A DNA stretch of 64,000 nucleotides from Kordiimonadales bacterium (GTDB lineage: Bacteria > Pseudomonadota > Alphaproteobacteria > Sphingomonadales > Kordiimonadaceae). The stretch spans positions 1 through 64,000 of the forward strand of contig NVTU01000009.1 of assembly GCA_002401685.1 (NCBI GenBank), given 5' to 3'. Positions 15,296 through 53,101 of this stretch are shown piece after piece; position 1 is the stretch's first letter, and every line of letters begins with the position of its first letter. The notes beneath the pieces were generated by a model that saw nothing but the letters and a program-made list of their open reading frames with translations, had not been told where the DNA came from and did not search any database. Both the position numbers and the translations under genes were made by a program.

Positions 15296-16184
15296 GTTTA
15301 GATACGGTAAGAAAGCCGTTTTTGCAGCGCTGGGCGTGCTCCCTAAAGGTATTTACAATTGGGGCAGTACGGCTGGACCAAAACACCAGCTGAGGAAAAC
15401 GCGGAATATCCTAGTTGCAGCCTTCACCGTAGGCGTTTTAGGTGCAATACCTTTATATGCGACAGATGAAAAGCCTCAAGATAGCCCGCTCATTGTTTTT
15501 GCGGCGGCTAGCCTCACCAGCACCCTTGATGTCCACGGCGCGGCTTGGGCGGAAGTTAGCGGCCGACCGGCACCCCGCTTTGTATTTGGCGGCAGCGCCA
15601 CGATGGCACGGCAAATACAAAAAGGCGCTCCGGCAGACATATTTATCTCAGCCAACGCCTATTGGGTCGACTATCTTTCCAAGCAAAATAGGCTGATCGC
15701 TTCCAGTGGGCATCCCATTGCACGCAACACGTTAGTGTTGGCAATACCAAAAACTGCGCTCGCCACTAATCCCTTCACCCCAACAAAAGAAGGTTTCGCT
15801 CTCCTCTTGGGCGGGCGACGTTTAGTGCTTGCTGATCCTGCACTCGCCCCAGCGGGCGACTATGCAAAAAGCTACCTGATAGAAGCTGGCCTTTGGCCCG
15901 CACTTAATGACCAAATAGCTTTGGTCTCGAATGTAAGACAAGCACTGCGGCTGGTTGAAACGGCTGGCTTGCCAGCCTTTATTTATGCCAGCGACGCTTA
16001 TCAAAGCCAGAAAGTATCGGTATTATTTAGGATCCCGAACACGATGGCCCCGCCAATCCTGTACCAAGCCAGCATACTTGGCAAACAAGCACGGGGCGCG
16101 CTGTCTTTCATCCAGTTTCTTCGCTCCGCTGATGCAAAGGCAATATGGCAGAAATTTGGATTTCAGGCTGTTGTCCAAAAATGA
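15264..16184 (+). CDS. Orphan ModA-like molybdate-type substrate-binding protein
   Basis: Periplasmic oxyanion-binding protein of the ModA family. FAAASLTSTLDVHGAAW, FVFGGSATMARQIQKGAPAD and IFISANAYWVDYL match the family's ligand-binding lobes, and the C-terminal ALSFIQFLRSADAKAIWQKFGF is typical. No modB or modC permease or ATPase gene is adjacent. The start is unclear. The frame opens at a TTG (15264) inside the polyprenyl synthase gene, a GTG lies at 15336, and a signal-like stretch (TRNILVAAFTVGVLGAIPLYA) follows codon 43 with no ATG before it. The mature protein probably starts near TDEKPQDSP. moaD and moaE lie 14 kb away. Confidence 0.78.
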   Translation: MSISVSRALFKFRYGKKAVFAALGVLPKGIYNWGSTAGPKHQLRKTRNILVAAFTVGVLGAIPLYATDEKPQDSPLIVFAAASLTSTLDVHGAAWAEVSGRPAPRFVFGGSATMARQIQKGAPADIFISANAYWVDYLSKQNRLIASSGHPIARNTLVLAIPKTALATNPFTPTKEGFALLLGGRRLVLADPALAPAGDYAKSYLIEAGLWPALNDQIALVSNVRQALRLVETAGLPAFIYASDAYQSQKVSVLFRIPNTMAPPILYQASILGKQARGALSFIQFLRSADAKAIWQKFGFQAVVQK

Positions 16185-16285
16185 AACACTATCTTCTGTA
16201 TCATTACGGGACAAAACCGTCCCATTGCCGGACCCCTCCGACATCCTAAGTTGCTAAGCCATTGAATTTTCTACTATCAGGAAAT

Positions 16286-16301
16286 TGGCACACAGCTTGC
16301 T
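16286..16301 (+). promoter_or_regulatory. Sigma-54 (RpoN) -24/-12 promoter
   Basis: TGGCAC (16286-16291), five bases, then TTGCT (16297-16301) is an essentially perfect match to the RpoN consensus TGGCAC-N5-TTGCW. The GC doublet at 16299-16300 places the start near 16312. It stands in the 346-bp gap (16185-16530) between the ModA-like gene and the MBL hydrolase gene, about 230 bases before the next start codon. Enhancer-binding sites could not be identified. Confidence 0.65.
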
Positions 16302-16311
16302 CTTAGTGCAG

Positions 16312-16452
16312 CATACCCGAAGCACATAGCTACTTACAATCGGGTTCCTGAATACCGGTCGCACCGGCTGCCACTGACGCGACCACGGCTTAGAAACCGG
16401 ACATGCTACATTTTCTGCCCCACCTCAATCCGCCGTAGCATGTCCGGTCTTC
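16312..16452 (+). ncRNA. Candidate structured RNA downstream of the sigma-54 promoter
   Basis: Three hairpins follow the predicted start. H1 pairs ACCCGA (16315-16320) with TCGGGT (16340-16345). H2 pairs CCGGT (16355-16359) with ACCGG (16363-16367). H3 pairs a 14-base arm ACCGGACATGCTAC (16396-16409) perfectly with 16435-16448. H3 encloses a 25-base loop rich in C (TGCCCCACCTC), which contains CACCTC, also present in the anti-Shine-Dalgarno end of 16S rRNA. The U-tract after H3 is poor (CTTCT), so H3 could be a weak terminator, a processed end, or a leader structure for the MBL gene. A tiny frame, ATG-CTA...CCG-TAG (11 codons), spans H3 without a clear ribosome site. Confidence 0.4.
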
Positions 16453-16530
16453 TACCATCTCTCTTTCCCCCTACACATTTTTGCCCTATTTACTGTTCAG
16501 TCCCTTAATGAAGCCTGAGCACCAATTGAT

Positions 16531-17445
16531 ATGTCCCTAAAATTCAAACAAGATTTTTCCGCAGTCTACGGTAAAGCCGAAGATATCAGCCCGCTAATCC
16601 GGCGCGTCTTATGCGAAAACCCCAGTCCCTACACCTATACCGGTACCGGCACTTATATTGTCGGCAAAGCGGGCGACCTTGCGGTGATTGATCCGGGCCC
16701 CGAAGACAGGGCCCACGGCGAGGCCATTTTAGCGGCAGCGGGCGCGCATAAAATCTCAACAATACTAGTCACTCACAGCCATATTGACCATTCACCGCTT
16801 TCGGCTTGGCTCGCAGAGCAAACCGGGGCCACCATATATGCATACGGCCCGCACGGGGCGGGGCGCAAAGGCGGCCTCGAAGGCGAAGAAGTGGAAGCAG
16901 GCGCCGACTGGGACTTCAAACCGCACAAACTCCTAAAAGACGGCGACACGGTAAGCAGCAAAGGCTGGTCGTTCACCGCCTTCCACACGCCAGGCCACAC
17001 AGCAAACCACATGTGTTTTCTTTTGGAAGAAGAAAATACCCTGTTTGTTGGTGACCATATTATGGGCTGGGCTACCACCGTCATCTCTCCGCCTGACGGC
17101 GATATGCGGGATTATTTGGCTAGCCTCAGAAAAGTCGAGAAGTTAGCGCCTGATATGTTACTGCCCACACACGGCCCAGCGGTCACCAAGTCCGCACGTT
17201 TTGTTCGCGGCATCATCGCCCACCGCCGCATGCGGGAGGGGCAAATACTCAAGCTACTCGCAGATGGTCCTTCGGCGATCGAAGCACTGGTGAAAATCAT
17301 GTATAAATCAACTGATATACGCCTACACCCCGCTGCAGCGCGTTCAGTTTTTGGTCACATTTTGGCTCTGGTTGACGAAAAGCGCGTCCGGTGTGAAGGA
17401 CCAACCTTACTTTCAAGTGAATATTTTCTACCAGACGCAGGATAA
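16531..17445 (+). CDS. MBL-fold metallohydrolase, LACTB2-like
   Basis: Zinc hydrolase of the metallo-beta-lactamase superfamily. The metal-binding signature THSHIDHS gives His82, His84, Asp86 and His87. Further ligands are in FHTPGHTANHMCF, LFVGDHIMG and LLPTHGPAV. A C-terminal winged-helix-like segment (IVAHRRMREGQILKLLADGPS... HILALVDEKRV region) places it with the LACTB2/beta-lactamase-like proteins, some of which act on RNA or thioesters. The substrate here is unknown. It begins about 80 bases after the H3 hairpin and may be read from the sigma-54 promoter or from a promoter of its own that I do not see clearly. Confidence 0.85.
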   Translation: MSLKFKQDFSAVYGKAEDISPLIRRVLCENPSPYTYTGTGTYIVGKAGDLAVIDPGPEDRAHGEAILAAAGAHKISTILVTHSHIDHSPLSAWLAEQTGATIYAYGPHGAGRKGGLEGEEVEAGADWDFKPHKLLKDGDTVSSKGWSFTAFHTPGHTANHMCFLLEEENTLFVGDHIMGWATTVISPPDGDMRDYLASLRKVEKLAPDMLLPTHGPAVTKSARFVRGIIAHRRMREGQILKLLADGPSAIEALVKIMYKSTDIRLHPAAARSVFGHILALVDEKRVRCEGPTLLSSEYFLPDAG

Positions 17446-52604: not shown

Positions 52605-52697
52605 AACGCCCTCCTGCAGCATTTGAGCGAAACTATAGTCCGGCTGACCAGTCATACAAAACGCTAAATCACAGGACGCTAAGTATAAGAGAAAAGC

Positions 52698-53101
<404 letters not shown>

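Follow-up and report, generated by a model that had tools for sequence, protein, structure and literature searches.

What does the sigma-54 promoter-like box between two protein-coding genes of this DNA drive, and what would its product do? The box, TGGCAC-N5-TTGCT (TGGCACACAGCTTGCT), lies at positions 16286 to 16301 of the plus strand, in the interval separating a ModA-like gene that ends at 16184 from an MBL-fold hydrolase gene (16531 to 17445, plus strand; PF00753 and PF17778) that we use as a positional landmark and that probably stands outside the circuit described below. A preliminary description had read this box, at consensus spacing and in a gap without any ORF, as the promoter of a structured non-coding RNA. 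The spacing is indeed as described, and an ORF scan found no frame of at least 60 aa in 16258 to 16530; the ORFs reaching into 16185 to 16257 are other-frame extensions out of the ModA gene. The window (the whole stretch of DNA that was analysed, 64,000 nt) holds a single TGGCAYNNNNNTTGCW, compared to a mean of 0.34 in dinucleotide shuffles, and the box by itself is not significant because 27 of 100 dinucleotide-shuffled windows contain at least one. Judged from sequence, it is conservation rather than the box alone that decides at this locus. Our main reading, to which we assign a probability of about three in four, is that the gap encodes a trans-acting RNA (sRNA A) that would form a sigma-54 pair with a second RNA (sRNA B) under one response regulator.

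The predicted transcript of sRNA A (16312 to 16460, plus strand, 149 nt, both ends being predictions) folds into the three hairpins that had been placed past the predicted start, with −52.5 kcal/mol, a z-score of −6.3, and none of 200 shuffles equally stable. H1 (16316 to 16344, plus strand), defined by the fold and a model-fitted alignment, is without a CUGCCA loop in the window genome, and H2 (16357 to 16384, plus strand) presents CUGCCA as a hexaloop; this loop motif of H1 and H2 did not feature in the preliminary description. H3 (16396 to 16448, plus strand; z −6.6 when folded alone) has exactly the perfect 14-bp stem reported before (16396 to 16409 pairing with 16435 to 16448) and a loop of 25 bases (16410 to 16434) that includes CACCTC. 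No U-run follows H3 in the window copy and no terminator-like site was found in the window, so that the 3′ end of this copy is uncertain. Neither the window RNA nor 8 related loci gave a gathering-score match in Rfam. A relaxed search returned CRISPR-DR8 (E 0.0022, 25.1 bits versus a cut-off of 39), MIR814, and TB9Cs1H3, which are sub-threshold and unrelated and which we took as chance. Elsewhere, the window carries a bacterial RNase P class A RNA (52695 to 53100, minus strand, 308.7 bits).

The sRNA A locus is present in all 19 searched genomes of a genus that we infer to be Kordiimonas, with the window genome (G000) included. The loop pattern was first found in 9 genomes, and its matches include records of Kordiimonas gwangyangensis DSM 19435 and K. 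marina; three of the 11 named matches (Botrimarina, Aeromonas media, and an Opitutia MAG) we regarded as chance. One viral contig (L085) also has an exact match to the loop pattern, and a phage collection gave no DNA match to the locus. The layout is the same in all 19 genus genomes, as read upstream of the MBL gene or, in G011, at the hairpin itself. A covariance model built from the 19 genus sequences (R1; the window sequence among its inputs, matched at 16310 to 16457) was used to search 196 genomes of the order and found one locus in each of the 19, three of which show weak antisense echoes in addition. Good matches appeared in two genomes of another genus (G021 with E 4e-8, G028 with E 3e-8), both with four hairpins, and weak matches in two more genomes of the family and in 2 of 167 outside it. 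Three of these four weak matches were read (G019, G024, and G142, leaving out G180) and discounted, as a scripted scan found no promoter with activator sites there. In a third genus (G023), the promoter box and activator-like sites are kept at a place with no R1 match. An ORF check of all 19 RNAs found none of 10 codons in 9 of them and no ORF common to all.

In 18 of the 19 genus genomes, the MBL gene is the next gene downstream of sRNA A, and the window lacks a terminator-like site; one could therefore take the RNA for the leading part of the MBL mRNA, gating expression of this gene, as the preliminary description had offered as an alternative. We consider such a cis-acting leader unlikely. 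In G011, which we infer to be K. marina, two genes that we take from their sequences to be ArsR-like and CDF-transporter-like intervene between the RNA and the MBL gene (L084:2711-4027); a clear U-rich tail follows H3 in 10 of the 19 RNAs, although not in the window; and sRNA B, a second RNA of the same design, sits at a different place with a terminator of its own.

The control region of sRNA A is conserved beyond the box itself. A relaxed pattern, TGGCA[CT]-N5-[TC]TG[CA], fits 19 of 19 genus loci, with the strict TTGC in 15 and deviations of the −12 box to CTGC and TTGA in two each. Upstream, the palindrome TGTnYCAnnnTGRnACA recurs at about −114, −89, and −68 from the box (about 10 bp farther out in G004 and G006), and we called an activator-like site wherever at least 10 of the 12 template positions agreed. 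In the window, site 1 (TGTCCAAAAATGAAACA, 16172 to 16188, plus strand) matches 11 of 12 positions and lies 114 bp upstream of TGGCAC, with its beginning inside the end of the ModA-like gene, and site 2 (TGTATCATTACGGGACA, 16197 to 16213, plus strand) matches 11 of 12 at 89 bp. The third place, at −68 (CGTCCCATTGCCGGACC, 16218 to 16234, plus strand), is degenerate and sub-threshold in the window genome. Across the genus promoters, scores of at least 10 occur in 16/19 at −112 to −114, in 8/19 at −87 to −89, and in 15/19 at −66 to −68. Each region thus has one to three sites (at least one in 19/19, at least two in 18/19), with a mean of 2.3 against 0.023 in base shuffles, a count that is partly circular because the template was read off these same promoters, which makes sRNA B the fairer test.

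Between these sites and the promoter lies an IHF-like site (ATTCAATGGCTTA, 16255 to 16267, minus strand) that agrees with 8 of 9 positions of WATCAANNNNTTR, which we take to be the IHF consensus. Among the 19 sRNA A promoters, 14 have such a minus-strand site at −30/−31 and 15 have one anywhere within 200 bp, compared to a shuffled mean of 4.8. The rpoN gene scores over its cut-off in all 19 genus genomes, G000 included. This conservation also bears on the idea that H3 merely terminates transcription from the upstream gene and that the sigma-54-like box arose by chance. The strong H3 stem, the U-rich tails in part of the genomes, and the frequency of the box in shuffled windows would fit this idea, but the box, the upstream sites, and H1 persist in G007 and G017 beside different upstream genes (named from sequence), the loops stay fixed while the stems change, and the entire design is repeated in sRNA B; we therefore hold it to be very improbable.

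Comparing the relatives for the motif and the hairpins and for compensatory changes in the H3 stem, as had been suggested from the window alone, bears out the structured RNA. Promoter-like element and hairpins recur in the relatives, and in H3 12 of 15 pairs show changes on both sides across the 19 genomes, versus 7.7 in shuffles, with none of 500 shuffles as good. In the same genomes, 96.8% of the cells in the H3 stem are paired, compared to 30% to 45% when the partner is slid by 1 to 3 columns; a count of further pair types in H3 did not exceed the shuffles (129/500). G-U combinations in H3 outnumber A-C combinations 24 to 3, which fits transcription of this strand, although it is also the strand on which the structure had been drawn. 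The model-fitted alignment (24 rows: 19 from the genus, one Kordiimonadaceae MAG, two from another genus, and two antisense matches) has changes on both sides in 30 of 33 pairs, including all those of the two H1 helices (5 and 3 pairs), and the outer H2 helix is paired in just 62% of cells. The perfect inverted repeat might alternatively be a DNA-level element, such as a mobile or recombination hairpin, which we judge extremely improbable: it occupies a single place per genome, nearly always the same one before the MBL gene, and the G-U/A-C asymmetry points to an RNA, with the reservation that the structure had been drawn on this strand. The initial proposal of a sigma-54-driven structured RNA is thus supported at the sequence level, since every one of the 19 genus genomes has the promoter-like box together with upstream sites and hairpins.

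While the stems vary in a compensated way, the loops stay fixed. CUGCCA occurs 33 times in the 19 RNAs (shuffled mean 1.0), with one or two copies per genus RNA sited in H1 and/or H2, and the two other-genus members with an extra hairpin have three copies each. The H3 loops fall into three classes: nine, including that of the window, bear CACCUC, eight have a CUUUCC core, and two form a third class. The anti-Shine-Dalgarno function first proposed for the CACCTC loop would consequently cover about half of the genus, the remaining H3 loops being C-rich in other ways. UUGCCUGA, the loop sequence of sRNA B, is also found in the sRNA A of 4 of the 19 genomes (shuffled mean 0.04), and the two RNAs therefore share loop motifs.

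In sRNA B, a sigma-54-like promoter precedes two hairpins, each with a UUGCCUGA loop, and a terminator. This RNA came to light when four genomes were searched strictly for the palindrome: of the six sites obtained, three led to sRNA B promoters, one lay before a regulator gene, and two were inside genes. When box and palindrome were searched together in 296 genomes of the order, 11 of the 19 genus genomes yielded matches, 13 places in all and each of them sRNA A or B by position or by reading, and the reversed control matched in one genome; six matches outside the genus were discounted, each having at most one activator-like site and no such hairpins. In the window genome, sRNA B lies outside the window (G000:C14:17137-17265, minus strand; L216) between genes that from their sequences are aminotransferase-class-V-like and acyltransferase-like.

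A second covariance model (R2), for which the transcribed portions of eight sRNA B genes served as input, matches 18 of 19 genus genomes (all except G017, where it found no sRNA B). Beyond the genus, it matches 7 of 10 further genomes in the family and 7 of 89 in the rest of the order. Among 289 genomes of the class, searched at 1e-4 with strict filters, R2 matched solely in the window's own genome. We read 25 loci from the 32 matched genomes, leaving out G007, G008, G061, G040, G035, G074, and G043; 17 of the 25 lay outside the inputs of R2 and had been found via the transcribed part alone, and two (G042 and G034) come from other families. Activator-like sites precede every one of these loci (at least one in 25/25, at least two in 22/25), with a mean of 2.4 versus 0.025. 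The strict promoter TGGCAY-N5-TTGC is present in 13/25 and the relaxed sigma-54 pattern in 24/25, an IHF-like site lies at −30 to −32 in 21/25, and UUGCCUGA occurs twice in 23/25.

The palindrome also leads to a candidate for the activator. The regulator gene reached in this way in G007 encodes a receiver domain (PF00072), a sigma-54 AAA+ domain (PF00158), and a Fis-type HTH (PF02954). Its best PDB match is LuxO (5ep0), and its best NCBIfam models are LuxO (409.5 bits, equivalog cut-off 800) and NtrC (397.6 bits, cut-off 558.6). The preliminary description had suggested control by nitrogen or stress; this likely activator scores almost equally against the two models and stays below either cut-off. 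Within the genus, 18 of 19 genomes have the gene, and no copy was found in the remaining one, the 77% complete genome of the window; in the rest of the order, 9 of 12 genomes have it. A palindrome of a related, more divergent type lies 60 to 100 bp before the conserved receiver motif of the regulator. Leaving 3 of 27 loci unparsed, the best 17-mer reaches at least 10 of 12 positions in 12 of 16 genus loci and in 8 of 8 non-genus loci, and the form most common in the genus, TGTCCTGAAATGATACA, has two mismatches to the template, both in the same half. Four of the 16 genus loci score just 9, a value that base shuffles often reach (47 to 53 of 300). The palindrome before this gene suggests autoregulation and would tie the protein to the site.

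In two relatives that were read, the regulator gene is near pntAA- and murI-like genes and no kinase directly adjoins it; one of these neighborhoods contains, about 5 kb away, a LytS-like kinase with its own regulator (named from sequence). Between pntAA and the regulator gene, many genus genomes have a block TTGCCCC..GAGC..AAAGGTA.CGCA..TTTGAGCAA (L112-L128), perhaps a leader of pntAA. The neighborhood in G007 also includes an N-formylglutamate-amidohydrolase-like gene (L206:11309-12076, named from sequence); genes of this kind adjoin alpha-r8 sRNAs in other alphaproteobacteria, according to an excerpt of PMC12559287.

The comparison of these sequences thus establishes a recurrent box with upstream sites, covarying stems, and fixed loops, with like sites before sRNA A, sRNA B, and the regulator gene, and transcription, activator, IHF, and base pairing would be joined to them as follows. 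An NtrC/LuxO-type response-regulator enhancer-binding protein would bind TGTnYCAnnnTGRnACA 66 to 114 bp upstream, IHF would bend the DNA between activator sites and promoter, and sigma-54 polymerase would initiate near 16312. This activator would switch on sRNA A and, from a separate locus, sRNA B at the same time, and it probably controls its own gene as well. The hairpin loops would then present fixed sequences, CUGCCA (H1/H2) and a C-rich one (H3) in sRNA A and UUGCCUGA twice in sRNA B, whose most likely pairing partners would be GGCA-containing and G-rich segments in target mRNAs.

What these targets could be was approached by searching for TTTTGCCTGA, which occurs 14 to 61 times per genome in ten genus genomes, compared to 0 to 5 times for the reversed form. 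This abundance likely reflects codon usage, because most of the first 30 sites that were read fall inside long reading frames. We screened 78 of the 335 matches near starts (28/30 in G010, 18/19 in G011, 17/18 in G001, 9/14 in G000, 3/61 in G007, and 3/37 in G004), omitting four matches in G010, G011, and G001 that are sRNA B itself, and found no convincing conserved target near starts among these 78. fabG-like genes of G011 and G001 have a site near the start, which in G001 is within the coding start. Pairing between the H3 loop and the start region of the regulator looked good by eye in G012 and G016, but shuffled loops did as well in 46 of 200 cases and the true partners fared no better than permuted ones (16 of 18 genomes parsed, p 0.28); since this permutation test failed, we do not claim feedback on the regulator mRNA.

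The loops could also hold a protein instead of an mRNA. CsrB and RsmZ titrate CsrA, and CrcZ titrates Hfq. In a similar manner, sRNA A and B might be twin sponges with a LuxO/NtrC-type regulator devoted to both, their UGCC loops (CUGCCA in A, UUGCCUGA in B) capturing an RNA-binding protein or a shared RNA partner, and if this were true, one signal would reset post-transcriptional control genome-wide in Kordiimonadaceae. Consistent with titration of a protein are the loops that stay fixed while stems vary, the presence of CUGCCA in each of the 19 RNAs with its threefold repetition in the other-genus members, the UGCC common to both loop types, and the B motif in some A RNAs. Expression of CrcZ likewise depends on RpoN together with a response regulator and IHF (excerpt of PMC8395346). 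Yet there is no protein candidate, the H3 loop is different in kind, and base-pairing seeds normally have fixed loops too, so that we entertain titration of a protein, like the broader twin-sponge idea, as a tentative possibility. That the loops of sRNA A and B act in trans, by mRNA pairing or by holding a protein, is the best-supported view of either RNA, and our main reading of a trans-acting pair under one regulator includes it.

If this reading is true, an alphaproteobacterial circuit of two non-identical RNAs with a shared promoter design and shared loop motifs would represent an independent case of circuit origin, with a sharp entry point in one promoter, one activator site, and fixed loops of 6 to 8 nt. 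The best-known sigma-54-dependent sRNAs with a response regulator of their own are gammaproteobacterial (Qrr, CrcZ, and NrsZ). Searches of the open-licence literature for Kordiimonas or Kordiimonadales with sRNA or RpoN, and for Sphingomonadales with sRNA and RpoN, returned no paper on sRNA A. The best explanation of the sequence evidence is a pair that would work like Vibrio LuxO-Qrr or Pseudomonas CbrB-CrcZ and belong to neither family.

Similar to LuxO-Qrr, the proposed Kordiimonas system has dispersed sRNA genes and an NtrC-family regulator whose best PDB and NCBIfam matches are LuxO, with putative sites 66 to 114 bp upstream. Compared to LuxO, however, the G007 regulator stays below the equivalog cut-off, the Kordiimonas palindrome differs from the LuxO half-site, and no kinase is directly beside the regulator gene in the two loci read. 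Unlike Qrr, sRNA A has no gathering-score Rfam match, and the RNAs carry repeated loop motifs. In Vibrio, the sRNA genes are dispersed and co-regulated (excerpt of PMC12559287), and the two sites bound by LuxO lie about 100 bp ahead of the sigma-54 site (excerpt of PMC11407668). Pseudomonas CrcZ is driven by RpoN, CbrB, and IHF and has a motif repeated along the RNA, as described in the excerpt of PMC8395346, and the Kordiimonas RNAs putatively share this plan of RpoN, response regulator, and IHF together with a repeated motif. CrcZ is 407 nt long with A-rich Hfq-binding motifs, whereas the RNAs described here are predicted to have about 120 to 150 nt with UGCC and C-rich loops. NrsZ of Pseudomonas is an NtrB/C- and RpoN-dependent intergenic sRNA according to the same excerpt (PMC8395346), but it lies beside ntrC, is nitrogen-controlled and processed, and has about 226 nt, differences from sRNA A that we draw from its description and not from its sequence. 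Among alphaproteobacteria, the alpha-r8 sRNAs (MmgR and Caulobacter SisA-D) expose a C-rich, anti-Shine-Dalgarno-type single-stranded stretch (excerpt of PMC12559287). sRNA A would also expose such a C-rich single-stranded stretch, but the folded window RNA lacks the alpha-r8 core 10-mer UUUCCUCCCU, and the promoters of SisA-D are, in that excerpt of PMC12559287, unrelated to each other, whereas sRNA A and sRNA B appear to follow one promoter design.
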